Shown piece by piece: positions 12,922-55,413 of a DNA stretch of 64,000 nt. Position numbers and translations under genes: made by a program. The notes beneath the pieces were generated by a model that did no database searches, had not been told where the DNA came from, and worked only from the letters and a program-made list of their open reading frames with translations. The DNA is taken from assembly GCA_902362595.1 (NCBI GenBank), contig CABIXF010000013.1:1-64000 (forward strand). The letters run 5' to 3'. Position 1 is the stretch's first letter. Every line of letters begins with the position of its first letter. The DNA comes from Bacteroidaceae bacterium (GTDB lineage Bacteria; Bacteroidota; Bacteroidia; Bacteroidales; Bacteroidaceae).

Positions 12922-13007
12922 AGTACTTCCTAGGAAGTACTTTAGTACTGCCTAAGAAGTACTGCAGTACTTTCAGGGGAGTACTCCAGTACTTTAAAGG
13001 AAGTACT
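12922..13007. repeat. 22-bp-period palindromic array 1 (AGTACT arms)
   Basis: Four 20-bp dyads begin at 12922, 12944, 12966 and 12988, exactly 22 bp apart. Each has the form AGTACT-N8-AGTACT with 2-nt linkers (TT, GC, CC). The first unit, AGTACTTCCTAGGAAGTACT, is a perfect palindrome; the others vary in the middle eight bases (GCCTAAGA, TTCAGGGG, TTAAAGGA) but keep both AGTACT arms intact. The outermost bases extend the array symmetry (CTC before and GAG after). Two further arrays with the same period lie at 28633 and 55310. Confidence 0.9.
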
Positions 13008-13073
13008 GAGTTGACAGCATATCATAAACTCAGCTTTTCCAACTGCTTGAATAGTAGTGGTTTGGCTGATGAA

Positions 13074-13121
13074 AAAAAGGAAGGGATCATTCAAATGGAA
13101 ATGAACGGTCCCTTCCTTTTT
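13074..13121. terminator. Bidirectional terminator
   Basis: A 13-bp perfect stem pairs AAAAAGGAAGGGA (13074-13086) with TCCCTTCCTTTTT (13109-13121), extended inward by TCATT/AATGA. A-run and T-run flanks make it usable from both strands, ending thrC on one side and the cytidylate-kinase-like gene on the other. Confidence 0.8.
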
Positions 13122-13139
13122 AGGTTATGTTTTTTCTTT

Positions 13140-13769
13140 TTAAAGATGAAGCTTCAGGGTCACAAATTTCTTGATGAACTCTACGGTGCCGTCAATCCCC
13201 AATACGGAGGAGTCAATACATAAATGATAAGTAGCTGCCGCTCCCCATGTCTTGTAACTGTAATAATTGTAGTAAGACGAACGTTTCTTATCGGCTTTTT
13301 CCATCAAGTCTTCTGCATCTTCGGCACTGATGTGGTGCAGTTTCATCAGTCGTTCGATACGGGCTTCGGGAGAGGCCGAAACAAAGACATTGGCACATCG
13401 CGGGTGGTCGCGGAGAATATAATCCGCGCAGCGTCCGACAAACAGGCACGATTGCTTTTCAGCTAGCTGACGGATGACATCACTCTGAATCTTGAACAGA
13501 GAGTCGTTGCTCAAGTAGGAATTGTAGGGATAGGCTCCCTCCGTGATGAACGGGAACCGCGTGCCGAACAGTCCTCCCAAAATAGTCTGAGAGGCTTTTT
13601 CGTCTGCTTTCTCGAAAAATTCCTTGCAGAGTCCACTTTCCTCCGAAGCCAGATTGATCAATTCCTTATCATAAAAAGCAATGCCTAGTTCATTCGCCAG
13701 TTTCTCACCAATCTCTTTTCCGCCACTTCCCAGCTGACGTCCGAGATTAATCACATAATGTCCGTCCAT
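13140..13769 (-). CDS. Cytidylate kinase-like family protein
   Basis: This 209-residue P-loop nucleotide kinase-like protein has a glycine-rich loop, GRQLGSGGKEIG (about 10-21), and later RCADYILRDH and VFVSASPEARIERL, typical of the cytidylate-kinase-like (Cmk2) family of Bacteroidetes and Firmicutes. It is distinct from the essential Cmk, and its substrate is unproved. The P-loop departs from the strict GxxGxGKS/T form (GSGGKE), as is usual in this group. The start ATG lies about 30 nt from a TATATTTG -7 box (13805-13798). Confidence 0.85.
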   Translation of the reverse strand: MDGHYVINLGRQLGSGGKEIGEKLANELGIAFYDKELINLASEESGLCKEFFEKADEKASQTILGGLFGTRFPFITEGAYPYNSYLSNDSLFKIQSDVIRQLAEKQSCLFVGRCADYILRDHPRCANVFVSASPEARIERLMKLHHISAEDAEDLMEKADKKRSSYYNYYSYKTWGAAATYHLCIDSSVLGIDGTVEFIKKFVTLKLHL

Positions 13770-13849
13770 AGTGTAACTTCTTTAGTTTGATATAAAGCAA
13801 ATATAAATCATTCTACGGAAAAATGCGACTTTTTTATCGTTTATTTTCG

Positions 13850-15220
13850 TCAGCGCTTGGATTGGGCTGCATGTTGTTGCTTGAATTGTTTGAATTGGGC
13901 ATAGAGCATGGTGCCTGCAATGATACTGGCTGTGATATCTGAAATCGGCATGCTGTACCACACGCCTTCTACTCCCCAAAAGAGAGGAAGAATTAGCAGG
14001 CAGGGAATCAGAATCAGGACCTGTCGGCTCAGAGAAAGGATGATGGCTTTCTTGGCCATACCGATGCTTTGGAAGAAGTTGGAGGTCACCATCTGAAAAC
14101 CGATGATGGGGAAAAACAGGACGACCACCTGCAATCCTTTTGCGCTCAGCTGTATGAGCTGTGCATCCGTTGTAAAGGCCGATACGGCCAGTTCTGGCAT
14201 CAGTTCTCCCACAAGGAAGCCGCTGGTCGTTACAATGGTGGCGGCGATGACGGTATATTTCATGACTTGGTTTACCCGATGGTAGTGCTGGGCACCGAAA
14301 TTATAGCCGGCAATGGGCTGCATCCCTTGGTTCAGTCCCATCACAATCATGACAAATAAAAATACAATGCGGTTGACAATGCCAAACGCGCCGATAGCCA
14401 AATCCCCATCATACAGTTTTAATCCCTTGTTGATAAGGATGACGATGAAGCAGGAAGCCAGGTTCATGAAGAAGGGAGCCAGTCCGATACCGATGATGTT
14501 TTCCACCAGTGTTGTCTTGAGCCGATAAATCCCTCTTTTCAGATGCAGAAGTTCATTCTTGTTACAGAAAATCTTGATGAGCCAGCATAAGGAAATAACC
14601 TGAGCCAGTACAGTGGCTATGGCGGCACCTTGGATTCCCATGTGGAAGGTATAGATGAACAGTGGGTCCAGCAGCGTATTGATGACCACGGTCAGGATAG
14701 TGGCTGCCATGGCCTTTTGCGGATGTCCGGCCGAACGCAGTACGGAGTTCAGTCCCAGGTACATGTGGGTAATGACATTCCCCAGAAGGATGGTAATCAT
14801 GTAGTCTCTGGCATAAGGAAGGGTAGCATCGCTGGCCCCGAAGAAATACAGAATCGGGTCCAGAAACAGCAGGCAGACAAGGGTGAACAGTATCCCGATA
14901 ATCAGGTTGAGTGATACTACATTTCCCAGAATCTGCTGGGCGGTAACATAATCCTTCTGTCCCAGTTTGACAGAAATGAGGGTGGAGGCTCCGACTCCTA
15001 CCAGTGAGCCGAAAGCGGCGGCCAGGTTCATCAGCGGAAAGGTGATGGCCAGTCCGGAGATAGCCAATGGCCCGACTCCATGTCCGATGAAGATACTGTC
15101 TACCATGTTGTAGAGGGAGGAGGCGGTCATGGCAATGATGGCTGGGATGGCATATTGCATCAATAGTTTTCCAATTCTTTCTGTTCCCAGCTCAGTAGCT
15201 GTTCCTTTTTGTGACGTCAT
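13850..15220 (-). CDS. MATE family efflux transporter
   Basis: The 456-residue integral membrane protein has about 12 hydrophobic segments and the features of the MATE family of Na+ or H+ driven multidrug exporters, for example IGKLLMQYAIPAIIAM at the N terminus and PLMNLAAAFGSLVGVGAST. The length is normal. It stands alone, divergent from the subtilase gene. A TACCTTTG -7 box lies on its strand at 15291-15284, about 65 nt before the ATG. The substrate cannot be predicted. Confidence 0.93.
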   Translation of the reverse strand: MTSQKGTATELGTERIGKLLMQYAIPAIIAMTASSLYNMVDSIFIGHGVGPLAISGLAITFPLMNLAAAFGSLVGVGASTLISVKLGQKDYVTAQQILGNVVSLNLIIGILFTLVCLLFLDPILYFFGASDATLPYARDYMITILLGNVITHMYLGLNSVLRSAGHPQKAMAATILTVVINTLLDPLFIYTFHMGIQGAAIATVLAQVISLCWLIKIFCNKNELLHLKRGIYRLKTTLVENIIGIGLAPFFMNLASCFIVILINKGLKLYDGDLAIGAFGIVNRIVFLFVMIVMGLNQGMQPIAGYNFGAQHYHRVNQVMKYTVIAATIVTTSGFLVGELMPELAVSAFTTDAQLIQLSAKGLQVVVLFFPIIGFQMVTSNFFQSIGMAKKAIILSLSRQVLILIPCLLILPLFWGVEGVWYSMPISDITASIIAGTMLYAQFKQFKQQHAAQSKR

Positions 15221-15350
15221 ACTCTCTATTCTTTTTCTTATTAATTGTTATCCAGAAATCTTTAGATTCCCTAAAAAATCGCGCAAAGGTAAGTCTTTTT
15301 CCGGAATCAGGGAAAACTTTGTGTATCTTTGCGCTTCAAAAATAAAAGCT
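15221..15350. promoter_or_regulatory. Divergent promoter region, MATE and subtilase
   Basis: Minus strand TACCTTTG (15291-15284) and plus strand TATCTTTG (15324-15331) are Bacteroides -7 boxes pointing in opposite directions. The plus-strand box is 19 nt upstream of the subtilase ATG, implying a very short 5' leader. Confidence 0.55.
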
Positions 15351-16742
15351 ATGTGGATGAATGTGAATAGAGTAGGATTATTCTTTTGCCTGTTGGCCTG
15401 CTTGGGGAGCGCTTCAGCAGAGACTATGTACAAATATCGGGTCCAGCTTACGGACAAGAAAAAGACCGTTTATTCTTTGGAACATCCGGAGGAATTTTTG
15501 TCGTCGCGGGCATTGGCGCGTCGGGCGCATCAGGGATTGGCCGTCGATTCGACCGATTTGCCTGTCTGCCGTGTGTATATAGACCGTCTGAAGGAGCAGG
15601 GGGGAGAATATGTTTCTTCCAGCAAATGGAACAATACGGTACTGATGGAGGTACCCGATGAGTCGGTGGCCCTCCGTTTTCTGGATAATCCTTTCGTGCG
15701 TTCCGTAAAGAAAGTCTGGGTCTCTCCGGATTCCATTCCTGCCCGGGGAGCGGGACGGAAGGAGCTGGTAAAGAACCAGTGGAAAAAACAGGACGATTAT
15801 TATGGAATGGCTTCCGAACAGATTAAAATACACAATGGAGACAGCTTGCATCTGGCAGGTTTCAAGGGACAAGGCATGCAGATTGCCGTGATTGATGCCG
15901 GTTTCTTCAATGTGGATGCCATGAAGATTTTTCATAAAACCTCCATCTTAGGTACACATGATTTTGTAAATCCGGATTCGGATATTTATGGAGAGCACAA
16001 TCATGGCATGAAAGTACTTTCCTGCATGGCTGCCAATATGCCCCATGTAATGGTCGGGACTGCTCCCGAGGCAAGTTATTGGCTGTTGCGGAGTGAGGAT
16101 AATGATACGGAACAGCCGGTGGAAGAGGATAATTGGGCGGCTGCCATTGAATTTGCCGACAGTGTAGGGGTGGATATCGTGAACACTTCACTGGGATATT
16201 ACTCTTTTGACGATCCGATTGACAATTATACTTATCGGGAACTCGATGGACATACTTCTTTGATGGCGGCTTCTGCTTCGTATGCGGCCAAAAAGGGATT
16301 GTTGGTGGTGTGCAGTGCCGGAAATTCTGGTATGGACACCTGGAAAAAGATAACGCCTCCGGCAGATGCAGAGGATATTCTGACCATCGGGGCGATAGAC
16401 AATATGGGAGTGAATGCCCCATTTTCTTCCATTGGCAATACGGCCGACGGACGTGTCAAGCCGGATGTCATGGCAATGGGGGTTCATTCGGCTGTAGTGG
16501 GTATCGACGGGGGGACTTCCTTTGCCAACGGTACGTCGTTTGCTTCGCCTACGTTCTGCGGACTGGTGGCTTGTTTGTGGGAGGCTTGTCCTTGGCTTAC
16601 TGTCCGCCAGTTGATTGAGATTGTACATGAAGCTAGTGACCGTAATACCTATCCGGACAATATTTTCGGTTATGGAGTGACGGATATCTGGAAAGCCTAT
16701 CAGCTGGGATTGAAACTGAAGAGCGGAAACGATGGAAAATAA
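15351..16742 (+). CDS. Secreted S8 family serine peptidase (subtilase)
   Basis: The product is a 463-residue secreted subtilisin-like protease with a signal peptide (about 1-23), an N-terminal propeptide-like region (to about 150) and the S8 catalytic domain. The triad is visible as D182 in AVIDAG, H218 in HNHGM and S396 in NGTSFASP, with the oxyanion Asn in CSAGNSG (N325). The start at 15351 was chosen over the long upstream in-frame extension because that extension runs through the divergent promoter and lacks a signal peptide. It overlaps xseA by 11 nt, so it is transcribed with an exonuclease subunit it has no evident functional tie to. Confidence 0.9.
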   Translation: MWMNVNRVGLFFCLLACLGSASAETMYKYRVQLTDKKKTVYSLEHPEEFLSSRALARRAHQGLAVDSTDLPVCRVYIDRLKEQGGEYVSSSKWNNTVLMEVPDESVALRFLDNPFVRSVKKVWVSPDSIPARGAGRKELVKNQWKKQDDYYGMASEQIKIHNGDSLHLAGFKGQGMQIAVIDAGFFNVDAMKIFHKTSILGTHDFVNPDSDIYGEHNHGMKVLSCMAANMPHVMVGTAPEASYWLLRSEDNDTEQPVEEDNWAAAIEFADSVGVDIVNTSLGYYSFDDPIDNYTYRELDGHTSLMAASASYAAKKGLLVVCSAGNSGMDTWKKITPPADAEDILTIGAIDNMGVNAPFSSIGNTADGRVKPDVMAMGVHSAVVGIDGGTSFANGTSFASPTFCGLVACLWEACPWLTVRQLIEIVHEASDRNTYPDNIFGYGVTDIWKAYQLGLKLKSGNDGK

Positions 16743-18033
16743 ACCTTTGTCTTTGCTGGAGCTGAATTCACTGGTCAGGAGGAGTATTACCTCCTGCTTG
16801 CCGGATGAATATTGGGTGCAGGCGGAACTGAGCGATGTACGCGTGAACTATTCCGGGCATTGTTACCTGGAGTTCGTGCAGAAAGATGCCACAGGCAATG
16901 CCCTGCTGGCCAAGGCTCGGGGGATTATATGGGCGAACGTATTTACCAGATTGCGGGCTTATTTTGAACGGGAAACCGGACAGGCTTTTGTGTCCGGACT
17001 GAAAGTGCTGGTCAAAGTCACAGTCGATTTTCATGAACTGTATGGTTATTCGTTGACGGTAGTCAATATCGACCCTACTTATACGTTGGGCGATATGGTA
17101 CGTCGCCGGAAGGAAATTCTGCGTCAGCTGGACGAAGAGGGTATCCTGACACTCAATAAAGAACTGGAACTGCCGCTACTTACCCAGCGGATTGCCGTAA
17201 TTTCATCGGCTACAGCTGCGGGGTATGGCGATTTCTGCAACCAGTTACAGCACAATGCCTTCGGCTTTGTGTTTTATCCTTATCTTTTTCAGGCGGTCAT
17301 GCAGGGAGAGCAGGTGGAGCAGTCCATCATTCAGGCCCTCGACCGTATCAATGCCACGCGCGATCTTTGGGATGTAGTGGTCATTATCCGAGGGGGAGGA
17401 GCCACTTCCGATCTTTCCGGTTTCGACACTTACGAGCTGGCCGCGAACTGTGCCCAGTTCCCGCTTCCCATCATTACCGGAATCGGGCATGAACGTGATG
17501 ATACCGTATTGGACCTGATAGCCCATACCCGTGTGAAGACTCCGACGGCTGCCGCCGAGTTCCTGATTAATCACCTGCGGCAGACGGCACAGGAATTGGA
17601 AGGATACGAGGAAATTATTTATGAAGAAGTTCCCCGCTTGTTGCAGCAAGAAAAGCAACGGTTGGAAGGTTTTGTCACGCGCATTCCCGGACAGGTGCAG
17701 ATGCGTTTGCAGCGGGAGACCTTCCGGCAGGAGCGCTTCCAGAACCGGATAAAGACGGCTTGGCAGTCGCGTTTGCTGCAGGAAAATTACCGTTTGCAAC
17801 TGATGCCTCGTGTACTTTCTGCCCTGCAGAACCGGGTGCAGCGCGAAACACATCGGCTGGAACTGCTGGCGCAACGGGTGTCTTCCGCTTCGCCGGAAGT
17901 CTTGTTGAAGAAAGGGTATAGTCTTACCTTGCTGAATGGAAAAGCAGTGACAGACGCTTCCTTGCTGAAACCGGGGGATGAAGTGGAGACCCGTCTGGCA
18001 AAGGGGCGATTCAGAAGTAAAGTAATCAAATGA
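16732..18033 (+). CDS. xseA: Exodeoxyribonuclease VII large subunit
   Basis: XseA forms the catalytic part of the single-strand-specific exonuclease VII. The 433-residue protein shows an N-terminal OB-fold (about 1-105), the catalytic domain with RRKEIL, ISSATAAGYGDF, RGGGATSDLSGF and GIGHERDDTVLD, and a long coiled-coil C-terminal part. It starts inside the end of the subtilase gene and is followed 9 nt later by xseB. Confidence 0.96.
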   Translation: MENKPLSLLELNSLVRRSITSCLPDEYWVQAELSDVRVNYSGHCYLEFVQKDATGNALLAKARGIIWANVFTRLRAYFERETGQAFVSGLKVLVKVTVDFHELYGYSLTVVNIDPTYTLGDMVRRRKEILRQLDEEGILTLNKELELPLLTQRIAVISSATAAGYGDFCNQLQHNAFGFVFYPYLFQAVMQGEQVEQSIIQALDRINATRDLWDVVVIIRGGGATSDLSGFDTYELAANCAQFPLPIITGIGHERDDTVLDLIAHTRVKTPTAAAEFLINHLRQTAQELEGYEEIIYEEVPRLLQQEKQRLEGFVTRIPGQVQMRLQRETFRQERFQNRIKTAWQSRLLQENYRLQLMPRVLSALQNRVQRETHRLELLAQRVSSASPEVLLKKGYSLTLLNGKAVTDASLLKPGDEVETRLAKGRFRSKVIK

Positions 18034-18042
18034 AACAATGAT

Positions 18043-18252
18043 ATGGCAGCAAAGAAAGAAACCTACTCAGAGGCCATGAAGCGCCTGGAGGAAATCGTGG
18101 CCCGTATTGAAAGCAACGAACTGGACATTGACCAGTTGGGCGAATACTTGCAGGAGGCCCAAAAACTGATAAAGTTCTGTAAGAACAAATTGTATAAAGC
18201 CGATGCGGAAATCAAGAAGATTTTGGAAGAAGAAAGCGACGCACAAGCTTGA
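18043..18252 (+). CDS. xseB: Exodeoxyribonuclease VII small subunit
   Basis: The 69-residue helical protein has the XseB pattern: a first helix with YSEAMKRLEEIVARIE, then LDQLGEYLQEAQKLIKFCK, which matches the family's conserved second helix. It directly follows xseA, and the two subunits form exonuclease VII. A strong terminator begins 2 nt past the stop. Confidence 0.95.
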   Translation: MAAKKETYSEAMKRLEEIVARIESNELDIDQLGEYLQEAQKLIKFCKNKLYKADAEIKKILEEESDAQA

Positions 18253-18253
18253 G

Positions 18254-18293
18254 CACTAAAAAAGCCAGACCGGGAAGTCTGGCTTTTTTAGTG
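18254..18293. terminator. Bidirectional rho-independent terminator
   Basis: A 17-bp perfect stem (18254-18270 with 18277-18293) has a CGGGAA loop. The GC-rich centre is flanked by A6 and T6 runs. It separates the convergent xseB and S46 peptidase genes. Confidence 0.92.
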
Positions 18294-18300
18294 GATAGGG

Positions 18301-23546: not shown

Positions 23547-23569
23547 ATTTCTTTTCTCTACTTTCTTCT

Positions 23570-27783: not shown

Positions 27784-28530
27784 TCAATTACAATTTTTGG
27801 GGTATTTCTTGAACCAGCTGTCCCATTTCAGCTGGATGACGCCGAACACGGCCTCTCCGAAAATGCTGCTGTTCATCTTGGAAGTGCCCAGTTCACGGTT
27901 GATAAAGATGACAGGTACTTCGGTGATATGGAAGCCGCATTTGAAGGCTGTGAATTTCATTTCAATCTGGAAGGCATAACCTTTGAAACGGATGCGGTCC
28001 AGATGAATGGTTTCAAGCACTTTGCGGCGGTAGCAGACGAAGCCGGCAGTGGTGTCGTGAATGGGCAGGCCGGTGATGAACCGCACGTATTTGGAGGCGA
28101 AGTACGACATCAGGACTCTTCCCATTGGCCAGTTGACCACATTGACTCCGCTCACGTAGCGTGAGCCGATGGACACATCCGCGCCGTCGTCGTGGCAGGC
28201 TTTGTAGAGCCGGGGCAGGTCGTTGGGATTGTGACTAAAGTCGGCGTCCATTTCGAATATGTAGTCATACCCATGTTCGATAGACCATTTGAAGCCGGTG
28301 ATGTAGGCTGTTCCCAGTCCGAGTTTGCCTTTCCGTTCAATCATGAACAGGCGTTCGGGAAATTCTTTTTGCAGTCGGCGAACGATGTCGGCCGTACCGT
28401 CGGGAGAATTGTCTTCGATGACCAGAATGTGGAAACATTTTTCCAGTCCGAATACTGCCCGGATGATATTTTCGATATTTTCCTTCTCGTTATAAGTAGG
28501 AATTATCACAATACTGTCACTTGTCTGCAT
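27784..28530 (-). CDS. Polyprenol-phosphate mannosyltransferase-like GT2
   Basis: The 248-residue GT-A glycosyltransferase has VIIPTYNEKENIENI at the N terminus, the DxD motif in FEMDADFSHNP and IGSRYVSG, matching the dolichyl/polyprenol-phosphate mannose synthase family. It has no C-terminal membrane domain, so it is the soluble catalytic type. It probably transfers a hexose from a nucleotide sugar to undecaprenyl phosphate. It heads the minus-strand operon. A TATCTTTG -7 box lies at 28558-28551, 21 nt from the ATG. Confidence 0.9.
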   Translation of the reverse strand: MQTSDSIVIIPTYNEKENIENIIRAVFGLEKCFHILVIEDNSPDGTADIVRRLQKEFPERLFMIERKGKLGLGTAYITGFKWSIEHGYDYIFEMDADFSHNPNDLPRLYKACHDDGADVSIGSRYVSGVNVVNWPMGRVLMSYFASKYVRFITGLPIHDTTAGFVCYRRKVLETIHLDRIRFKGYAFQIEMKFTAFKCGFHITEVPVIFINRELGTSKMNSSIFGEAVFGVIQLKWDSWFKKYPKNCN

Positions 28531-28942
28531 GGTGTTTTTATTATGTCGTGCAAAGATAATAAGAACTCGTGAAATTTGTGATATAATTAGGGAAATATCG
28601 GGCTGTGTTCAGGCCTAAATTATCCTTCGCAAAAACGCTTAGGCGTTTGCTTTTAAACGTCGAAGCGTTTCATCTGAAACGTCTAAGCGTTTTACTTCAA
28701 ACGTCGAAGCGTTTTGTCTCAAACGCCGAAGTGTTTTGTTTGAAACGCTTCGACGTTTTCAAAAGGGCATTTTGTGTCCTGAAAAAAGGTCGTCAGAAGG
28801 AATGAAATCTTGTCTTTCTGCATGCTTGTTGTTGGTTGTGTCATTCTTAATTTTTGTAAAAAAAGAAGGCGGTAGAAATACTTTCGCGAAAAAAGTCTTA
28901 GACTTGCGCCCATATTGTAATATACACAAAATATAGAAGATT
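28531..28942. other. Divergent intergenic region with palindrome array
   Basis: No gene is supported. The stretch holds the promoter of the minus-strand operon (28558-28551), six palindromic repeats at 22-bp spacing and an AT-rich leader before the pantothenate kinase gene. A short plus-strand reading frame across the repeats is a by-product of the 22-bp unit and not a credible protein. Confidence 0.7.
28633..28758. repeat. 22-bp-period palindromic array 2 (AAACG arms)
   Basis: Six 16-bp imperfect palindromes begin at 28633, 28655, 28677, 28699, 28721 and 28743, exactly 22 bp apart, with 6-nt linkers of unrelated sequence. Typical units are AAACGTCGAAGCGTTT (twice), AAACGTCTAAGCGTTT, AAACGCCGAAGTGTTT, AAACGCTTAGGCGTTT and AAACGCTTCGACGTTT. 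The last has the core in the opposite sense. The array sits between divergent promoters, close to the glycosyltransferase -7 box. Confidence 0.92.
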
Positions 28943-29782
28943 ATGATTATAGGAATAGATGTAGGGGGAAGTACAACCAAGATTGTGGGAATCAAAGACG
29001 GATGTGCTTATCATCCGATGTTTGTGACGGCTACCGACCCGGTCACTTCCTTGTTTGGAGCTTTCGGAAAATATATATACGACCATTCTATCCAGTTGTC
29101 GGAGGTGGAACAGGTGATGCTCACCGGAGTGGGAAGTTCTTACATCCAGCAACCTTTGTACGGTTTGCCCACCGCTCGGACGGACGAGTTTATTGCCAAC
29201 GGGTTGAGTGCACAGTATGCCACCGGACTGGACAAACTGATGGTGGTGAGCATGGGGACAGGTACTTCGTTTGTCCGGGTGGAGAATGATACCATCTGTC
29301 ATGTGGGCGGCATTGGTATCGGGGGAGGAACACTGATGGGACTTTCACGTTTGCTGCTGCATACGCAGGACATTCTGTGGGTATCGGAACTGGCTGGGAA
29401 AGGAGACTTGCGGAATGTGGATTTGCAGATACAGGATATTTGCCGGACCTCTCTTCCCGGGTTGCCGCTGGATGCGACGGCTTCTTTGCTGGGAAAACTG
29501 GATAACAATGCTTCTCCTGAAGACCTGGCACTGGGGCTGATGCACATGGTGTTGCAGTCTATCGGGCAGGCGGCTGTCTTGTCGGCTTTGGGTATGGGTA
29601 TCCGCAATTTTGTGCTGATAGGTAACTTGACGCAGCTTCCGCAATGCCGTCCGGTATTTGATACCATCGGACGTATGTATGATGTGCGTTTTATTATTCC
29701 GGAAAATGCGGAGTATCAGACAGCAATCGGAGCGGCTTTGGCGTATATAAAAGAAACACACACCCGTCCGGTAAGGGGATAA
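28943..29782 (+). CDS. coaW: Type II pantothenate kinase
   Basis: The enzyme phosphorylates pantothenate, the first step of CoA synthesis. The 279-residue protein has the actin-fold phosphate motif IGIDVGGSTTKIVG at the N terminus and later GTGTSFVRVE and GIGGGTLMGLSRLL, which fit the eukaryotic-type (type II) pantothenate kinases found in staphylococci and in many Bacteroidetes. It is a single gene, divergent from the glycosyltransferase operon. A stem-loop overlaps its stop codon. Confidence 0.9.
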   Translation: MIIGIDVGGSTTKIVGIKDGCAYHPMFVTATDPVTSLFGAFGKYIYDHSIQLSEVEQVMLTGVGSSYIQQPLYGLPTARTDEFIANGLSAQYATGLDKLMVVSMGTGTSFVRVENDTICHVGGIGIGGGTLMGLSRLLLHTQDILWVSELAGKGDLRNVDLQIQDICRTSLPGLPLDATASLLGKLDNNASPEDLALGLMHMVLQSIGQAAVLSALGMGIRNFVLIGNLTQLPQCRPVFDTIGRMYDVRFIIPENAEYQTAIGAALAYIKETHTRPVRG

Positions 29783-29800
29783 CCTTTCCGGACAGGTGTG
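29759..29800. terminator. Stem-loop overlapping coaW stop codon
   Basis: CACACC, GTCCGG and AAGG pair with CCTT, CCGGAC and GGTGTG around a GGATAA loop that contains the stop region. There is no T run, so it is only a weak candidate terminator between the convergent coaW and TPR genes. Confidence 0.45.
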
Positions 29801-29818
29801 CGGGAATCCTGCTTTCGC

Positions 29819-31978
29819 TCATCGCAGGATATCTGTGATCAGGTAAATCTGGCAGTCGGAAATGCCTTGCGTGGAAAGGGCTTCCTTGTCGGCCAGGAAC
29901 AAGGATATGAACTCTTCGGTCGAGGCACAATCTGCCGCTGCCTTTCGGTAGTGTTCCAAGGCTTGTGGCACTTGTCCCATGGCCAGGTAGACGTGTCCGG
30001 AATTCAGCCAGTCGTTTGCCTGAGGTTTTTCCAGTGCCAGCAGTTTCTCGTACATTCGAATTGCTTCTTCGTGTTTCCCAGACATGAAGTAACACCAGCC
30101 GATGGCGCGCCGTGCCTTTTCGGGGTGTGATTCCAGAAATTCAACTTTAAAAAACAGTTTGATGGCTTCGGCATATTCTTTCTGTGCGGCCAGGCATTGT
30201 CCAACTTGCATCAGGGTGTTGAGGTTGTCTGGGTCGAACGCAAGAACCCGCTGGAAAACCTGAGTAGCCTTTGAAAAGTCACCAGACAGTTTGTAGCAAT
30301 GAGCCAGGTGCTTGAGGGTCCACAAGTGGTCGGGCTTGATGAGGTCGGCTTGCTGGTAGGCGTTTACGGCTTTTTCGTAAAGCTTGTTCTTCTGGTAAGC
30401 GAAGCCCAGTTTCTGCCAGGTTTCTGCCTGGTCGGGTTCTTTCTGTACCAGCGTTTCATACAGGGCGGCAGCTTCCTGCATGTAGCCTTTGGAAAAGAGG
30501 TATCCCGCTATCTGTTCGTGGTATTTCCCTTTTAGAATAAGCGGACGGAGCAACGGATTGTTCCAGAAATCCAGCTTGTCTTTGAAGATATCGTGCTGTT
30601 CGGTCCTGAATCTCCATAATTTATAGAAACGGTACAAGTTGTGTACATATTGCCGTTGGATGGCATTGACCTGTCGTTCTGCCGGATTTCCGGAGCCGTC
30701 AATTTCTTTAGGAATAATTTCTTCGCCGCTCATTTTAGACAGCATGAAGGTCTGCTGGTCATGAGGAAGTGATTTCATGGCCAGGCAGAATGAATATTTG
30801 TCGGAGTCGCAGAACACTTGAGAATTGACTACCATGCCCAGCAGGGATTGCTTTTCGAATGTTTTGTCCTTGTATATTTGATACAGGTCGGGCACTTTCA
30901 TGCTGAACAGATAGAACCAGTGGGCTGCTTCCTGAAAAAACGGGTAAGTCTTTAGTTGGGAAAAGGCGGTCATGTATGTATCGGCGCCTTCCATTTGCAA
31001 TTCGCCCAGTTCGCGGATGTGGTCGCCTATTTTTTCCAGGTCTTTCTGCCATTCCGGGTTCAGGTCTTCGATATCTTCTATTTCGATGGCTTTCAGTTCT
31101 GGTTTCCGCAGATTGGGGTTACGCATCATTTGGGGAATGATTTCTTCACGCATTTTTTTGTCAATTTTTTCTGTTTCGCGCGAAAGGAGTAAGATAATCT
31201 GGATGTCGTGCAATTGTTTCAGGAGTACCGGATTGTCTGCCATCAGTTTCAAGGCAGAAACGAGGTTTGGATAGAGTGAAATCCGCTCGGGCTGAAAATA
31301 GGTCACCAAAGCGATGCCCGTCAATGCACGTTGGCTGACAGCCAGTTCGCCAGACATCTGGCAGGCTGAAAGCAGCAAGGTAAATTTCCGTACATCGAAA
31401 ATCTGCAAGAGGTTCAGCGTGAGGGCGCTGATCATCACTGCCTTGTCGTTCGTGGCCATGGAAGGAGACGTCAGCAACAGACGTGCCTCTTGGTATTCTT
31501 CTTCACTCCATTGGGTAGATACCCATATTTTATTGAACAGTTCGTCGACTGCATTTTTATGAAGGGTGTAGTTCTGCAATGTCTGCGCTTCTTTTTCCGT
31601 TTCGTTTTCCGGCGCGGGTGAAGGATGTCCGGCCGCTTCCAGCATGAAGTCGATTTCTTTGAATGAATGTGGCGGCACCTGTGCAAACTTCCGGAATTTG
31701 TCGGCATAGTATCCGTAAGCCTTTTCCTGCTCTTTCAGAAAGAACGTTTTGTCGGTCAGTTCATAGGCTTTGCACATCAGTTGCTGGTAGATGTTTTCGC
31801 GCTGAGGGTCCTGTGTCCCCATGGCTGTATATTGCAGCATATAATTATAAGTGGTTTGCTGTGTCTCTATCTGCGACTGCAGCTCCCAGTCATTGAGTGT
31901 ATTGGCTGCTTCTTTTATATGGGCAAAAGCTTCTTTCAGTCTTTTCTCGTGTAAAAGTTGGATAATCTCTTTCTGCAT
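29819..31978 (-). CDS. Large TPR protein, 719 aa
   Basis: The cytoplasmic-looking protein has no signal peptide. Residues 1-400 are helical and of no recognised family. The C-terminal 250 residues hold about five to six tetratricopeptide repeats, such as AETWQKLGFAYQKNKLYEKA and the copies that follow. TPR arrays act as protein-binding scaffolds; the partner is unknown. The start at 31978 (MQKEIIQLL) was chosen because it lies 68 nt from a TACTTTTG -7 box at 32053-32046, and the upstream extension crosses that box. Confidence 0.8.
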   Translation of the reverse strand: MQKEIIQLLHEKRLKEAFAHIKEAANTLNDWELQSQIETQQTTYNYMLQYTAMGTQDPQRENIYQQLMCKAYELTDKTFFLKEQEKAYGYYADKFRKFAQVPPHSFKEIDFMLEAAGHPSPAPENETEKEAQTLQNYTLHKNAVDELFNKIWVSTQWSEEEYQEARLLLTSPSMATNDKAVMISALTLNLLQIFDVRKFTLLLSACQMSGELAVSQRALTGIALVTYFQPERISLYPNLVSALKLMADNPVLLKQLHDIQIILLLSRETEKIDKKMREEIIPQMMRNPNLRKPELKAIEIEDIEDLNPEWQKDLEKIGDHIRELGELQMEGADTYMTAFSQLKTYPFFQEAAHWFYLFSMKVPDLYQIYKDKTFEKQSLLGMVVNSQVFCDSDKYSFCLAMKSLPHDQQTFMLSKMSGEEIIPKEIDGSGNPAERQVNAIQRQYVHNLYRFYKLWRFRTEQHDIFKDKLDFWNNPLLRPLILKGKYHEQIAGYLFSKGYMQEAAALYETLVQKEPDQAETWQKLGFAYQKNKLYEKAVNAYQQADLIKPDHLWTLKHLAHCYKLSGDFSKATQVFQRVLAFDPDNLNTLMQVGQCLAAQKEYAEAIKLFFKVEFLESHPEKARRAIGWCYFMSGKHEEAIRMYEKLLALEKPQANDWLNSGHVYLAMGQVPQALEHYRKAAADCASTEEFISLFLADKEALSTQGISDCQIYLITDILR

Positions 31979-32377
31979 GATGATTTCACAATGATTAAGT
32001 CTATAACATGGAAGTATCTTCTTGAAGATATCTTTCCGTACGAGACAAAAGTAGTAATTATTTCTTAGTTTTTTGTTTTGCGATGAATCTAAATGCCCTT
32101 TTTTTGAAGAAAATGTTGCTCTCTTTCCCATTCATAATGAAATGGTTATGAAATGTTTGTAGGAAATGGATATGAAAAAGCAAATTTTTTTGTCAAAGAG
32201 ATAGGGGTTTTTTGCGGTAGCTGCGTTATGTAGATGAAGTCACCTAGCTAAGTGTAACAACAAAAAAACTAAACGCAGGACTTTCGAGATACCGGAATGA
32301 CACAGAAATAAACCGAAACGGCAGACCGGACCTGAAAGAACGGCATTTTAATTATGAATCATTAAAAACTAGACAGT
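31979..32377. other. Divergent promoter region, TPR and OMP genes
   Basis: There is no gene in this 399-nt stretch. The minus-strand box TACTTTTG (32053-32046) probably serves the TPR gene. On the plus strand no clear TAnnTTTG box was found before the OMP gene at 32378, leaving a long leader with short A/T-rich repeats. An alternative sigma factor could be used there, given the sigma gene downstream. Confidence 0.5.
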
Positions 32378-49069: not shown

Positions 49070-49097
49070 GCGTTTGTTTCAAATTAAGTAGAAGATT

Positions 49098-49619: not shown

Positions 49620-51148
49620 CAACAGCAGAACAATATAAGAAATTTGAGGAACTGGACAAGCTGGCTTCTCAGGGCGGCGGTGTAGAACGCGTGGAAAAAC
49701 AGCACGCCAACGGTCACATGACAGCCCGCGAACGTATCGACATGTTGCTCGACAAGGGTACGTTCAATGAAATCGACAAATTCGTAATCCACCATTGCAC
49801 AGACTTTGGCATGGACAAGAAACATATTCCGGGCGACGGTATCGTATGCGGTTACGGTAAGATTGACGGCCGTCTGGTATATGTATATGCATACGACTTC
49901 ACCGTGTATGGCGGTACGCTGAGTGCGACCGGTGCCCAGAAAATCGTGAAGGTACAGGAATTGGCGCTGAAGAACGGTGCTCCGGTCATTGCCTTGAACG
50001 ACTCAGGTGGTGCCCGTATTCAGGAAGGTGTGGGCAGTATCTCCGGTTACGCTTCCATCTTCTATCAGAACACCATTGCTTCGGGTGTGATTCCGCAGAT
50101 TTCGGCCATCTTGGGTCCGTGTGCGGGAGGTGCCTGCTATTCTCCGGCCCTGACCGACTTCATTTTCATGGTGAAGGAAAAGAGCCACATGTTCATCACC
50201 GGTCCGGACGTAGTGAAAGCCGTGACCCACGAAGAAGTGGACAAGGAAGAACTGGGTGGTGCTTATACCCACAGCAGCAAGAGCGGTGTGACACACTTCC
50301 TTTGCGATACGGAAGAAGAAACCCTGATGAGCATCCGCGAACTGTTGAGCTTCCTTCCTTCCAACAACATGGAAGATGCGCCGATGATTCCTTGCACCGA
50401 CGATATCCGCCGTGCGGAAGAATCGCTGATGACAGTCATTCCGGACGACCCGAACATGCCGTACGATATCAAGAACATCATCGAACCGGTGGTCGACAAC
50501 CATTATTTCTTTGAAGTGATGCCTCACTTTGCCAAGAACATCGTAGTCGGATTTGCCCGTCTGGGCGGACGTTCCGTAGGTATCGTGGCCAACCAGCCTG
50601 CTTACCTGGCCGGTGTGCTCGACATCGATGCCTCTGACAAGGCTTCCCGCTTCATCCGTTTCTGCGACTGCTTCAATATTCCTATCGTGACGTTCGAAGA
50701 CGTGCCGGGCTTCCTGCCGGGATGCACACAGGAACACAACGGTATCATCCGTCACGGAGCGAAAATTGTGTATGCCTACGCAGAAGCTACCGTACCTAAG
50801 ATTACCGTCATTACCCGTAAGGCTTACGGAGGTGCTTACATCGTGATGAACAGCAAGCCGATTGGTGCCGATGTGAACTTCTCTTATCCGACAGCCGAAA
50901 TCGCCGTAATGGGTGCCGACGGTGCCGTAAACATCCTCTACCGCAAGGCTACTCCGGAAGAGAAAGCCAAGGCAGTGGAAGAATACAAGGAAAAATTCTC
51001 CAATCCTTACCGTGCGGCCGAACAGGGTTACATCGATGAAATCATTCTGCCGAAAGATACCCGTTACAAACTGATTCAGGCATTGGAAATGACTCAGAAC
51101 AAGAGCCAGAGCAATCCGCCGAAGAAACACGGCAACATGCCGCTGTAA
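49616..51148 (+). CDS. Acyl-CoA carboxylase carboxyltransferase subunit (PccB/MmdA-like)
   Basis: The 510-residue carboxyltransferase moves CO2 between biotin and an acyl-CoA, most likely propionyl-CoA/methylmalonyl-CoA. It has the crotonase-fold motifs LNDSGGARIQEGVGS, GPCAGGACYSPAL and DVPGFLPG with GGAYIVMNSK. In Bacteroides such proteins take part in the succinate-propionate pathway, either as a decarboxylase or a carboxylase. The ATP-dependent biotin carboxylase in the same operon favours the carboxylase direction or a reversible role. Confidence 0.93.
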   Translation: MTTAEQYKKFEELDKLASQGGGVERVEKQHANGHMTARERIDMLLDKGTFNEIDKFVIHHCTDFGMDKKHIPGDGIVCGYGKIDGRLVYVYAYDFTVYGGTLSATGAQKIVKVQELALKNGAPVIALNDSGGARIQEGVGSISGYASIFYQNTIASGVIPQISAILGPCAGGACYSPALTDFIFMVKEKSHMFITGPDVVKAVTHEEVDKEELGGAYTHSSKSGVTHFLCDTEEETLMSIRELLSFLPSNNMEDAPMIPCTDDIRRAEESLMTVIPDDPNMPYDIKNIIEPVVDNHYFFEVMPHFAKNIVVGFARLGGRSVGIVANQPAYLAGVLDIDASDKASRFIRFCDCFNIPIVTFEDVPGFLPGCTQEHNGIIRHGAKIVYAYAEATVPKITVITRKAYGGAYIVMNSKPIGADVNFSYPTAEIAVMGADGAVNILYRKATPEEKAKAVEEYKEKFSNPYRAAEQGYIDEIILPKDTRYKLIQALEMTQNKSQSNPPKKHGNMPL

Positions 51149-51181
51149 TCAGCTGACGATTATTCAGTAAATCCACATAAG

Positions 51182-51228
51182 AAGCGAAGAATTCCGCCGG
51201 TCATGCGCGAGGAGTTCTTCGCTTTCTT
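51182..51228 (+). terminator. Terminator of the carboxylase operon
   Basis: AAGCGAAGAA (51182-51191) pairs with TTCTTCGCTT (51215-51224), followed by TCTT. It comes after the carboxyltransferase stop and before the DMT transporter gene. Confidence 0.75.
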
Positions 51229-51257
51229 GTATAGTTATCACATTAGATTCTGTCATT

Positions 51258-52163
51258 ATGAAGGAAGCATTTATAAAACTGCATCTTTCCATTCTCATTG
51301 CCGGAGGGACGGGCGTGTTCGGGAGACTGATTTCCCTGAACGAAGGACTGCTCGTATGGTACCGGATGATGTTTGCCTCCGTGATGTTCTTTCTGCTGCT
51401 TTCGTGCTTGAAGAAGCTGCGGAAAGTCTCCTTTGGCGATGTGGCAAAGATTGCCTCCGTGGGGCTGCTGCTGGCCAGCCACTGGATTTTCTTCTATGGA
51501 AGCATCAAGGCCTCCAACGTGTCCATCGGTGTGGTCTGCCTGTCGCTGATGAGCATCTTTACCGCCATCTTTGAGCCCCTCATCAACCGTCACCGCATTT
51601 CCTTGCGGGAGATTCTGTTCAGCCTGGTGGCTGTGGGAGGCATCGTGCTGATTTTCCATTTCGACACCCGCTACCGGACCGGTATCTGCATGGGCGTCAT
51701 CTCGTCGGCCCTGGCTTCGCTGTTTACCATTGTCAACAAGAAAGTGGCCGTGAACTATACCTCCAGCACCATGCTGATGTACGAGATGCTGGGCGGTTTT
51801 CTGGGCCTGTCGTGCATCCTGCCTTTCTACCTCCATTATTTCCCCGTGGCCTCCATTCTGCCCGGGACGCAGGATTTCATTTACCTGCTCTGTCTGGCTT
51901 CAATCTGTACCGTCGGACTCTATATCCTCCAGATTCAGGTGCTGAAAGTCATTTCCGCCTTTACGGTCAATCTGAGCTACAACCTCGAGCCGATATACAG
52001 CATCATCGGGGCCATGATTATTTTCCAGGAAGCCAAGGACCTGAACTTCAGTTTCTATCTGGGCCTGGGACTGATTGTGCTGTCGGTGGTGCTCCAGACC
52101 CTTAACGTGCTGTCGCAGCACCATAAGTTTGTACCCTCACTCTACGTCAAATGGAAACGCTGA
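51258..52163 (+). CDS. DMT family (EamA) transporter
   Basis: The 301-residue protein has about ten hydrophobic segments in two EamA repeats, typical of drug/metabolite transporters. The substrate is unknown. Its end overlaps the following MoxR-type ATPase gene by 13 nt, so it appears to be the first gene of a three-gene operon with the RavA/ViaA-like pair; that link may be only transcriptional. Confidence 0.9.
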   Translation: MKEAFIKLHLSILIAGGTGVFGRLISLNEGLLVWYRMMFASVMFFLLLSCLKKLRKVSFGDVAKIASVGLLLASHWIFFYGSIKASNVSIGVVCLSLMSIFTAIFEPLINRHRISLREILFSLVAVGGIVLIFHFDTRYRTGICMGVISSALASLFTIVNKKVAVNYTSSTMLMYEMLGGFLGLSCILPFYLHYFPVASILPGTQDFIYLLCLASICTVGLYILQIQVLKVISAFTVNLSYNLEPIYSIIGAMIIFQEAKDLNFSFYLGLGLIVLSVVLQTLNVLSQHHKFVPSLYVKWKR

Positions 52164-53779
52164 AGAACCGTATCGAGCAACTGCTGGACACCCTCAACGA
52201 GCGGGTGTACGGCAAGGAAGAAGTCATGGCCCTGGCACTGCTTTCGGCTGTGGCTGGAGAGAGTATTTTCCTGCTGGGCCCTCCGGGAGTGGCCAAGAGT
52301 ATGGTAGCCCGTCGGCTGAAACTCATGTTTCGCGGAGGTACTGCGTTCGAATACCTCATGTCGCGTTTCAGTACCCCCGACGAGATTTTCGGCCCCGTGT
52401 CCATCGCCAAGCTGAAAAATGAGGACACTTACGAACGCATGACCGAAGGCTATCTGCCTACCGCCACCGTGGTCTTTCTGGATGAAATCTGGAAAGCCGG
52501 TCCCGCCATACAGAATGCCCTGCTGACCGTCATCAATGAGAAAATCTACCGCAACGGACAGTTCTCCGTGCAGGTACCCATGAAGGGGCTGATTGCCGCC
52601 TCGAACGAACTTCCCGCTTCAGGGCAAGGACTGGAGGCCCTGTACGACCGTTTCCTGGTGCGCAAGTTGGTGGGTGGCATTGAAGACCTGTCCGAATTCG
52701 ACCAGATGATTCTGACCGCCGATGAAAGCGAACCGGAGATGGAAGAGCAGCTGGCCGTGAGCGACGAAGAATACCGCCAGTGGCAGGAACAGATGAAGGC
52801 CGTTGGTCTGCACTATTCCGTGCTGGAAGTGATTCATTCCCTCAAGGATAAGCTGGAAGACTACAACCGTCAGCTGGAAAATGCCGATGTACCCGCTTCA
52901 CCCGCCCTGTATGTGTCCGACCGCCGTTGGAAGAAAATCGTACGCCTGCTGCGGGCCTCCGCCTTCCTGCAAGGGAACACCGAGGTGCGCCTGTCCGACT
53001 GCCTGCTGATGGTACACTGCCTGTGGAACGAGACCGGACAGATAGACTGGGTGCGCGATGCCGTGCTGACCGCGGTAGGAGAGAGCGTGCGCGGCTATGT
53101 GCTGAACCTTTCCGGCATTGAAGCCGATTTGCAAGCCCTGAAGAAAGAACTCGACTCCGCAGGAGCCCTGCGCGAGCGGGCCGATGCCGGACTGCAACTG
53201 GTCGATGCGTATTATTACCAGGTGGAGCGCGTGCGGCTGGCCGGACGGTTGCTCCTCTTTGCTTCCGACTACCAGCAGCTGGACGATACCGGCAAGCAGT
53301 TCTACCTGCATAAGGATAAGTACAAGACCGACTGTTACGTGCTGAAGAAATACGACCCCTCGATGCGCGGCAAGGTATCCCCTTCGAAAGTCTACACCCT
53401 TCGTCGGGGCCGCCGTTCGGTGTTCATCAACGACTATGAATACCCCTTGCTGTGCACGCCCGACTGTACCGCCCTGCCCGCCATGGAAGTACAGTCGCAC
53501 GAAGACCTTCCCGCCCGCTTCAGTCGGCTGGAACAGCAGCTCAGTCACGTGGAAGCCCATTGCGGCGACTGGGTGAAAGAAGAAGCCGACTATTGCGCAA
53601 GCCATCTGTTTGTCGGACGAAAAGAAAAAGAAGCCATGAGCCGGATACTGGGCGAGCCGACGAAAGCCCTGTTCCGCTATCGGAACGAATTGGAGGAAAT
53701 GAAACATGCATACCGGAAAGAGAACGAGGAATATCCGTCTGAAAGACCTGAAAACAGCCTATTTGGAGCAACTTCGTGA
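52151..53779 (+). CDS. RavA-like MoxR AAA+ ATPase
   Basis: The 542-residue AAA+ protein has Walker A GPPGVAKS (about 43-50), Walker B FLDEIWKAG (about 107-115) and the extended C-terminal region seen in RavA-type MoxR proteins. RavA with its VWA partner ViaA acts as a chaperone-like system in enterobacteria and affects respiratory complexes and metal or antibiotic response. It overlaps the VWA gene by up to 74 nt. Codons here are GC-richer than in most of the window. Confidence 0.88.
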   Translation: METLKNRIEQLLDTLNERVYGKEEVMALALLSAVAGESIFLLGPPGVAKSMVARRLKLMFRGGTAFEYLMSRFSTPDEIFGPVSIAKLKNEDTYERMTEGYLPTATVVFLDEIWKAGPAIQNALLTVINEKIYRNGQFSVQVPMKGLIAASNELPASGQGLEALYDRFLVRKLVGGIEDLSEFDQMILTADESEPEMEEQLAVSDEEYRQWQEQMKAVGLHYSVLEVIHSLKDKLEDYNRQLENADVPASPALYVSDRRWKKIVRLLRASAFLQGNTEVRLSDCLLMVHCLWNETGQIDWVRDAVLTAVGESVRGYVLNLSGIEADLQALKKELDSAGALRERADAGLQLVDAYYYQVERVRLAGRLLLFASDYQQLDDTGKQFYLHKDKYKTDCYVLKKYDPSMRGKVSPSKVYTLRRGRRSVFINDYEYPLLCTPDCTALPAMEVQSHEDLPARFSRLEQQLSHVEAHCGDWVKEEADYCASHLFVGRKEKEAMSRILGEPTKALFRYRNELEEMKHAYRKENEEYPSERPENSLFGATS

Positions 53780-55076
53780 GCGGAGCCGGGCGCGGATGGA
53801 AGAATACCTTCAGGGGCGGACGGTGCTGGAGAGCGAGCTGGAAGAATGTGTGTGGGACTATTACCGCAAGACGGTGCCCTCGCTTCAGGAATTCTATTCC
53901 CGCTATACCCCCGAATGGGAAGTCTTCTATGCAAACGCAACCCTTTCGTCGGCCGATTTCCTGACCTTCCTGCAACGGATGGAAACGGCCTTCCGCAAGC
54001 GCTATACCCTGGCCGAGCTGGATGTGTCCTATTACATCGGTCGCCTGTCCCGGCTTCCCGAAGGAAGCGAAGAACGTGCAGCCCTACAGGAACTCTTTCT
54101 GGACAAGTGGCACCATCTGCTCTCGGTGAAGGAATACGACTACCAGTACCAGCACCTCTTCCACCTGTGCGACGGGTTCGCCCTGCTGGACAAGTCGTTC
54201 GGCCTGAAAACGGAGGGCAACCTCCGGGGCTCGCGCGTGAAATGGCTGTTGCGGAACCATCCGGAACTCTATCAGAAAGTGGTGCCCTATGAGAAAGCCA
54301 TGGAGCAGAACCGCCAGATACGCGAGCTGGTGCGCTGCCTGGGAAAGAACGTGGGCGGACGGAAAGAAAGTTTCGACTCCCTGTCGGGACTTCGGGCCGA
54401 CAGGCTGATTCATCATGCCGCCCAAAGCGACGTGGAAGGAGTGACCTTGGGCGACGACCTCAACAGCCTGCTGCCCGTGGAGTATTGCTACCTCACGGAC
54501 GAGGTGCTCTATCCCTTCTTCATGCAGCGCTATGTGGAAAAACGCCTGCAACAGTTCGACTCCTATTCCCGCGAGGACCGTTCCGACCGTTCGCCGGAGA
54601 AAAAGAAAGTCAGTGCCCAGGGCCCCTACATCATTTGTGTGGACACCTCCGGTTCCATGCGCGAAGGCCGCGAACGCTTAGCCAAGTCGGCCGTGCTGGC
54701 CATTGCCCGTCTCACGGAAGCCACCTCACGGAAATGTTACGTCATCAACTTCTCGGAAGACATCCAAACCCTTCTGGTGCGCGATTTGAAGACCGATTTC
54801 CCTGTGCTGGTGAACTTCCTGCAACGTCGTTTCGACGGCGGTACCGATGTGCGTCCGGCCTTTGCCGAAGCGCTGATGATGCTGCGTACCCACGGCTGGC
54901 ATCGGGCCGACGTGGTACTGATTTCCGATTTCGAGATGCCTCCTCCCGATGACGCGCTGCTGGCCGACATCCATCGTGCCCGTTTGCGGGGGACTTCCTT
55001 CTATGCGCTGGTGTTCGGTACTCATCCGGAAACAGATTACCTTCACGAGTGTGAAAAGTATTGGGATATGTATTGA
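53706..55076 (+). CDS. ViaA-like VWA domain protein
   Basis: The 456-residue protein has a helical N-terminal part (about 1-300) and a C-terminal von Willebrand A domain whose MIDAS metal site is visible as CVDTSGSMREGRE (about 310-322), with a later SDFEMPPP. This matches ViaA-like partners of MoxR ATPases. The start is uncertain. The ATG at 53706 overlaps the ATPase gene by 74 nt, while an in-frame ATG at 53796 would begin after it. Confidence 0.87.
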   Translation: MHTGKRTRNIRLKDLKTAYLEQLRERSRARMEEYLQGRTVLESELEECVWDYYRKTVPSLQEFYSRYTPEWEVFYANATLSSADFLTFLQRMETAFRKRYTLAELDVSYYIGRLSRLPEGSEERAALQELFLDKWHHLLSVKEYDYQYQHLFHLCDGFALLDKSFGLKTEGNLRGSRVKWLLRNHPELYQKVVPYEKAMEQNRQIRELVRCLGKNVGGRKESFDSLSGLRADRLIHHAAQSDVEGVTLGDDLNSLLPVEYCYLTDEVLYPFFMQRYVEKRLQQFDSYSREDRSDRSPEKKKVSAQGPYIICVDTSGSMREGRERLAKSAVLAIARLTEATSRKCYVINFSEDIQTLLVRDLKTDFPVLVNFLQRRFDGGTDVRPAFAEALMMLRTHGWHRADVVLISDFEMPPPDDALLADIHRARLRGTSFYALVFGTHPETDYLHECEKYWDMY

Positions 55077-55129
55077 ACAGGAAAATCACTTTTTTCTTGT
55101 TTTTCGCTTCTTGCTGAAAATAAGATTTA

Positions 55130-55180
55130 AAATGCGAAATTCTGCTTTCTTTCTGAATGGAGGAATTTCGCATTTTTTTG
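55130..55180 (+). terminator. Terminator after VWA gene
   Basis: AAATGCGAAATTC (55130-55142) pairs over 13 bp with GAATTTCGCATTT (55163-55175), with a 20-nt loop and a following T run. The long loop is unusual for a terminator. Confidence 0.75.
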
Positions 55181-55309
55181 TGTATAATCTTGGGTTACCC
55201 CTTTCAGAAGGCTTGTAGAGGGGGTGTTTCCTGTATAAAAACGGGTATTCGGATGAATCTGGAGAAGAAAATGCGTGAAAATCGGCCTGAAAAGCCGAAT
55301 TTGAAGCCA

Positions 55310-55413
55310 AAATGCCGAAGTGTTTGGGCGAAAGCCCCGAAGCATTTCTGGAAAAACTCTTTGACGTTTGAAGGAAAACGTAAGGGCGTTTGAGGGCAAA
55401 TGTACTTGCGTTT
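55310..55413. repeat. 22-bp-period palindromic array 3 (degenerate)
   Basis: Five 16-bp units begin at 55310, 55332, 55354, 55376 and 55398, exactly 22 bp apart, with 6-nt linkers. They are AAATGCCGAAGTGTTT, AAGCCCCGAAGCATTT, AAACTCTTTGACGTTT, AAACGTAAGGGCGTTT and AAATGTACTTGCGTTT. The arms are more degenerate than in array 2 but most keep AAA at the left and all keep TTT at the right. A further GCCGAA motif at 55294 lies out of phase. Confidence 0.8.

Follow-up and report, generated by a model that had tools for sequence, protein, structure and literature searches.

Dyad arrays of one helical geometry and lineage-specific arm sequences in Bacteroidaceae, candidate operator-like sites for a family of DNA-binding proteins

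The stretch of DNA analysed here, called the window throughout, comprises 64,000 nucleotides of a Bacteroidaceae bacterium (assembly GCA_902362595.1, contig CABIXF010000013.1, positions 1 to 64,000) and contains three arrays of short dyads, which begin at positions 12922, 28633 and 55310 and consist of four, six and five dyads, respectively, at an exact period of 22 bp, as the first-pass annotation of the sequence had described. No strand is assigned to any of them. Array 1 (12922..13007) is made of four AGTACT-N8-AGTACT dyads starting at 12922, 12944, 12966 and 12988, with the cores TCCTAGGA, GCCTAAGA, TTCAGGGG and TTAAAGGA; together with an outer inverted repeat, CTCAGTACTTCCT...AGGAAGTACTGAG, which forms an outer 13-bp stem in the predicted fold, it spans 12919..13010. 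It lies between a threonine synthase gene (11584..12885, + strand; Pfam PF14821 and PF00291), whose product has its best named relatives in B. mediterraneensis (97%) and P. plebeius (96%), and a convergent cytidylate kinase-like gene (13140..13769, − strand; PF13189). Array 2 (28633..28758) holds six AAACG-N6-CGTTT dyads, with starts from 28633 to 28743 and the successive cores CTTAGG, TCGAAG, TCTAAG, TCGAAG, CCGAAG and CTTCGA, between divergent genes for a family 2 glycosyltransferase (27784..28530, − strand; PF00535) and a Fumble-type kinase (28943..29782, + strand; PF03630). Array 3 (55310..55413) comprises five decayed dyads of the AAACG-N6-CGTTT kind, with starts from 55310 to 55398, each retaining 7-10 of the 10 arm bases, to the right of a VWA-domain gene (53706..55076, + strand; PF13519). 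All three thus occupy the intergenic contexts first assigned to them, convergent, divergent and convergent, the last provided that an AbiEii-like open reading frame (ORF; 55808-56278, − strand) is the right neighbour and that no gene corresponds to the 189-aa ORF overlying the array, for which Pfam gives no match.

In what follows, comparison genomes carry G-numbers, of which G001 is the closest to the window, and extracted loci carry L-numbers. Most of the window is ~89-98% like G001, and the part from 28560 to 32300 is ~74-82% like it and looks like a segment from another lineage; array 2, inside this part, has CGAAG-type cores as in G004, unlike G001. At the same place in G023 (contig C44, locus L220), two large inverted repeats of another type (containing GGGGTTGAC and its complement) adjoin the array. 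Near array 3, the ~1.5 kb from 55757 to 57277, which hold the AbiEii-like ORF and an HTH_3/DUF6922 ORF (56462-57004, − strand), have no counterpart at the matching G001 place.

An arm-independent dyad scan of the window over periods 18-33, with the maximum of five Markov-1 shuffles as background, ranked period 22 first. At the best setting of the scan (four copies, 7-bp arms, 6-bp gap) only the three arrays exceeded the shuffle maximum, and other settings brought up a few marginal extra places with one or two pairs over the shuffles (e.g., 19847 and 61220). An AT-rich 24-bp tandem repeat at 61112-61158 is apparently unrelated to the dyad arrays. The finer layout consists of inverted 5-bp arms alternating every 11 bp (arm5-N6-arm5'-N6), and so the 22-bp repeat originally proposed stands as a period, the underlying repeat being instead an 11-bp alternation of inverted half-sites. 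The three different arm sequences of the same proposal reduce to two, AGTACT in array 1 and AAACG/CGTTT in arrays 2 and 3.

The same geometry recurs in sampled relatives, with a clear excess of 22-bp periodicity beyond the three arrays from which the first-pass annotation had started. Arm-free scans of the window and of sampled stretches of relatives (Phocaeicola, Bacteroides and near relatives) gave 52 clusters at a half-period of 11 bp versus five at 9, 10, 12 and 13 bp combined; the scan requires about six half-site steps and therefore misses very short arrays. Thirteen of these clusters come from 800 kb of evenly spaced G001 sequence, three from the window, and the remainder from G035 (3), G023 (2), G004 (4) and other Phocaeicola (2; 200 kb), besides 25 from 80 threonine synthase (thrC) loci (1.43 Mb, including some Prevotellaceae), three of the 25 clusters falling within called ORFs. 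Because the thrC loci are all centred on one gene and hence not blind, and because L034 and L035 are near-identical, these 25 clusters do not represent 25 independent arrays. Spacing is also sharp when counted from the arms themselves: over 1.18 Mb, mostly evenly taken stretches together with the window and its matching places, the distance from AAACG to CGTTT (5-30 bp) is 11 bp in 56 cases and takes any other value at most five times. Size is also restricted, with eight half-sites in 46 of 100 arrays, ten in 17, six in 11, seven in 10, nine in 8 and other values in 8. Other Bacteroidales families yielded no cluster at half-period 11 in 144 kb, a sample too small to exclude a low density, and 260 kb from 13 genomes of other orders and classes yielded none at half-period 11 and one at 13.

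What varies is the arm sequence. At least nine arms share the layout (AAACG, AGTACT, TGCCA, TCTCA, GGAAA, GTACA, TGCAT, GCTAAC and TTCAC), with a few weaker ones beyond these, and a single genome may host several, as G001 does with AAACG, AGTACT (8 loci) and a GGAAA type. Forward matches to the strict pattern AAACGN6CGTTTN6AAACGN6CGTTT number 106 in G001, 97 in G004, 103 in G008 and 145 in G023; the pattern is present in 13 of 60 relatives, its reversed control giving 0 in every genome, and within the family it occurs in 6 of 151 genomes, all belonging to one of 22 genera. Even within this arm type there are dialects of the core, which among the matches listed is CAAGTG in G001 and G023, TCAAGG in G008, CCGAAG in G004 and TCCGTT in G035. 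Strict patterns undercount decayed arm families, and it is with that caution that the others should be read: TGCCA is found in 3 of 151 family genomes and 0 of 60 in the phylum, TCTCA in 1 of 151, and GGAAAC in 0 of 60, although decayed arrays of this last type exist in G001. Behind threonine synthase alone, TGCCA arrays are found in B. congonensis, B. acidifaciens, strain GM023 and B. reticulotermitis, TCTCA arrays in B. xylanisolvens, B. faecichinchillae and B. bouchesdurhonensis, and a GGAAA array in a Mediterranea genome bin; at most of the remaining thrC loci this position shows no clear array.

What could hold a helical geometry constant while the sequence placed upon it changes? Fixed geometry with changing arms points to a family of DNA-binding proteins, and of the two mechanisms put forward in the first-pass annotation, binding by one protein family with fixed geometry and a copying of units, the former is the better supported. 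Inverted 5-bp arms every 11 bp would bring all half-sites to the same side of the helix, in its major groove, where a helix-turn-helix (HTH) type dimer could recognise a single 16-bp dyad; four such dimers, in the commonest case, could line up over ~88 bp, probably cooperatively. If lineages carry different members of the protein family with different half-site specificity, the arms would differ while the geometry persists. We give roughly even chances to this reading, in which the arrays are operator-like half-sites on one DNA face, often four dyads together, bound by HTH-type dimers of lineage-specific specificity. As in operator arrays, the half-sites lie on one helical face and are more conserved than the spacers. 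Dyads, moreover, keep company: 158 of 158 constrained AAACG dyads are inside arrays (1.44 Mb of partly overlapping stretches), and of those with any core only 2 of 164 are isolated. The core near C(T/G)AAG, first remarked upon in the three arrays, generalises, as AAG or CTT, in either orientation, is present in the 6-bp core of 114 of 134 exact AAACG dyads from the window, G001 and G008, where random re-pairing of half-cores predicts 58. Perfect 16-bp palindromes are scarcer among the same dyads than expected (3 versus 14.7).

The operator-like arrays would, on this proposal, be mostly inherited in place, gaining and losing 22-bp units and being kept by selection on the arms. Judged by the aligned loci, they mostly retain their place between related species. 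Array 1 has counterparts at the same place in G001 (L147) and in L030 and is shrunk to one half-unit, GGAAGTACTGAG, in L001; array 3 is common to the window, G001 (L216) and G023 (L218). Over 10 of 11 same-place array pairs, in which sites are not strictly independent and two G001 arrays each enter two pairs, substitutions number 31 of 485 in the arms, 76 of 576 at other array positions (Fisher p 0.0002) and 179 of 1122 in the flanks, which puts the rate of arm change at half that found elsewhere in the array. The pair left out, array 2 versus G001, was too divergent by the cut; its arms are also less changed (13/73 vs. 36/91). This difference in rate is difficult to reconcile with neutral satellites, that is, 22-bp units expanded by replication slippage in non-coding DNA, a reading already disfavoured and in our estimation very improbable. 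Slippage would account for adjacent 22-mers that are identical in 2 of 58 arrays and identical at 21 of 22 positions in 3 of 58, for the one extra 22-bp unit of L181 (G023) relative to L149 at the same place, and for the reduced array of L001. It would not account for identical arms recurring at tens of unlinked loci whose spacers have little sequence in common, for the narrow size range, or for a single period across unrelated arm families. The copying of units proposed at first is therefore borne out locally, by the near-identical adjacent 22-mers and the one-unit difference. Copying of whole arrays between loci is unsupported, because most array pairs within a genome share little beyond one dyad.

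That last point also bears on whether the arrays could be non-autonomous mobile palindromic elements, akin to repetitive extragenic palindromes (REPs) and bacterial interspersed mosaic elements (BIMEs) or to miniature inverted-repeat transposable elements (MITEs), with families set by the specificity of the mobilising enzyme. Dispersed, clade-specific families, several per genome, are what such elements would produce, as are a compact size of some four dyads, inverted repeats at the outer ends like those of array 1, the lack of lone constrained dyads, and different families behind the same gene in related Bacteroides. The longest strings shared by AGTACT pairs in G001 (37 bases) and by pairs in G035 (44 bases) would also fit. 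Between AAACG arrays, however, the longest shared strings are mostly of 16-20 bases, with maxima of 27 (G001) and 28 (G008); of six G023 AGTACT arrays targeted, five can be aligned to one of the AGTACT arrays of G001, the sixth, L182, having no partner among the sampled G001 stretches; and the one near-empty site inspected by eye (L001) showed no target-site duplication. The Y1/RAYT transposase family (PF01797) has no member in G001 and is present in 2 of 17 Phocaeicola genomes (G003 and G017), neither with AAACG or AGTACT matches. The exception to the short shared strings is in G035, where two contig ends share 137 bases including flank. Mobility as the origin of the arrays thus appears distinctly improbable to us. 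Some G035 arrays lie near contig ends (L176, L179, L180), and the array and flank shared by the ends of L179 and L180 suggest repeats that broke the assembly.

Alternatively, the dyads may act after transcription, as RNA hairpins that work as terminators in tandem, stabilise 3' ends or give rise to small RNAs. Several AAACG arrays begin in an A-run and finish in a T-run, T-runs also occur in the spacers of TCTCA and GTACA arrays, and the position of arrays near gene 3' ends, detailed below, would suit hairpins as well as bound proteins. The pattern of change suits half-sites in DNA better than hairpins in RNA, since arm changes mostly go uncompensated and the sixth positions vary independently. 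In 193 units with 965 arm pairs there are 64 single and 7 double arm changes, and whether position 6 is C or T on one side does not depend on the other (table 33, 26, 52, 31; Fisher p 0.49). Where arrays lie between tandem genes, A.C outnumbers G.U on the sense strand (32 vs. 18 at position 6, 10 vs. 7 in the arms). A test for compensatory change and for G.U being tolerated over A.C on the transcribed strand came out negative, with power limited by the few double changes. Across 58 arrays, random flips of the cores make no average difference to predicted folding (mean z score 0.06, p 0.70), and in G035 the real orientations lean to worse folding than flips (+1.38). RNA would have no need of exact 11-bp spacing, and downstream of array 1 lies a terminator-like hairpin distinct from it, as judged by eye. 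We regard RNA-level hairpin arrays as unlikely.

Several results nonetheless weigh against protein-bound half-sites, and those on folding speak at the same time for hairpins. First, the arrays fold well as RNA, with z scores (+/− strand) of −8.3/−8.0 for array 1, −7.7/−5.3 for array 2 and −3.3/−0.7 for array 3, the last being strong on one strand only; inverted repeats would give such folds anyway. The real core orientations of G001 fold slightly better than flips (mean z −0.58, standard error of the mean 0.23, 19 arrays), four of the seven double arm changes yield standard pairs, slightly above a chance estimate of ~1.6, and in seven divergent arrays, read on the + strand as an arbitrary direction, G.U exceeds A.C at position 6 by 12 to 1. 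Second, the asymmetric AAG core is unusual for a symmetric operator, and the mode of eight half-sites fails in the set of G023, G035, G004 and other stretches (1 of 11), three G004 arrays having six. Third, an all-versus-all comparison of 346 nearby proteins gave no gene family recurring beside arrays that suggests a binder: the recurring groups, judged from those of three or more members, look like vertical same-place neighbours or common families. A recurrent neighbour of any kind, be it cargo, transposase or self-regulated factor, is likewise not supported by this comparison. Fourth, an octamer of the Lrp/AsnC family, whose members number 2-3 copies in each of 14 genomes, does not commend itself as the binder. 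One copy carries the identical stretch GVSRAAIHQRVQRL in G004 (97 AAACG hits), in G035 (14) and in G016, G017 and G024 (none); in the few readable cases, genomes that have the AAACG family therefore do not differ in the recognition-helix region from those that lack it, a comparison that is incomplete in that it leaves out 17 of 30 loci plus two more (G260 and G004b).

Where the arrays lie offers a clue to what bound proteins might do there. They favour gene 3' ends. By gene calls from a simple longest-ORF script, 23 are in convergent, 33 in tandem and 9 in divergent contexts, a distribution that differs from that of sampled G001 gene gaps of at least 100 bp (46 convergent, 140 tandem, 60 divergent; p 0.009), and 24 of the 33 tandem arrays are closer to the upstream stop than to the downstream start (median distances 35 and 146 bp). 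A further 9 overlap called ORFs from within, and 1 is at the edge of a stretch. Considering this position at gene ends, we infer that filled arrays might serve as roadblocks or insulators against read-through, or as anchor sites of the nucleoid.

On a larger scale, at least 75 of the 106 forward AAACG matches of G001 are at 1.0-3.0 Mb of the 4.03-Mb contig C1 and at least 14 at 0-1.0 Mb; all 89 matches listed of the 106 lie below 2.99 Mb, and the other 17 are presumably farther along C1 or on different contigs. Since sampled GC skew becomes negative near 1.9-2.1 Mb, the AAACG-dense 1.0-3.0 Mb may be the terminus half of the chromosome, an exploratory and tentative assignment, with dnaA at 3.21 Mb. 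G001 further contains thirteen dispersed weak DnaA-family hits, 257-aa frames of near-equal scores with a DnaA-like ATPase region, which we take to be perhaps the helper ATPase of an IS21-type element. A bolder proposal, which we hold to be possible although doubtful, is a Bacteroidaceae-wide chromosome-organising system of lineage-specific DNA-binding proteins whose half-site specificity changes fast, with four dimers per array at gene 3' ends, denser toward the terminus, the arrays being rewritten to another arm type whenever the protein changes.

With 13 arrays in the 800 kb sampled, the closest genome would have ~65 such places when scaled to 4.1 Mb. If bound as proposed, they would reveal, in major gut bacteria, a family of abundant DNA-binding proteins, bear on how these bacteria insulate neighbouring genes, and provide a natural experiment in DNA-protein co-evolution in which sequence turns over and helical geometry does not. 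There is also a risk of taking the arrays for terminators, REPs or CRISPR-like repeats.

How do they compare with repeats already described? REPs and BIMEs include palindrome families tagged with GTAG or CGTC, the CGTC type having stems of 8-9 bp and loops of 4-5 bases (PMC3733652). Like them, the arrays consist of short palindromes that lie mostly between genes, number from tens to hundreds per genome, are often paired or clustered and in some genomes belong to several families; unlike them, they have 5-bp arms in register every 11 bp with about four dyads per place, no lone constrained AAACG dyads, and no Y1 transposase in the closest genome. Neither tag recurs as such, AAACG being followed by Y and then mostly by A, C or T, with CGTC as one variant only, and the AGTACT-N8-AGTACT dyads of array 1 have neither GTAG nor CGTC as a constant end. 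Singlets and head-head or tail-tail pairs, the usual REP arrangement, are lacking among the constrained AAACG dyads.

Closer in taxonomy is BrickBuilt, a minisatellite or MITE of Porphyromonas gingivalis and some P. gulae, which consists of 23-nt direct repeats in 1 to 22.8 copies; most cases have a leader, a tail or both, together with small terminal inverted repeats, and the element is mobile, duplicating 4 bases of its target (PMC4596501). The arrays share with it a home in Bacteroidales and intergenic tandem units of almost equal length and variable number, which for BrickBuilt differs between strains; they differ in being built of 22-bp dyads, most often four, with no leader or tail found. 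The period here is 22 bp with an internal dyad, and no long string including flanks is shared among the arrays compared in G001 and G008, the G035 contig-end pair excepted. The idea of a possibly undescribed repeat system with one architecture, raised at first from the window alone, stands: Rfam covariance models at gathering score have no match within the window, and searches of open-access full texts, which do not extend to subscription papers or preprints, turned up no description of such arrays.

Finally, the operator arrays of nucleoid proteins offer a further parallel. SlmA, Noc, ParB/parS and Lrp octamers have dispersed palindromic chromosomal sites that are read as DNA by dimers or multimers, and each of these systems keeps to one conserved site sequence. 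The arrays resemble these sites in being palindromic and dispersed over the chromosome, and they depart from them in combining many arm sequences with one geometry and in lying, as phased arrays, preferentially near gene ends.

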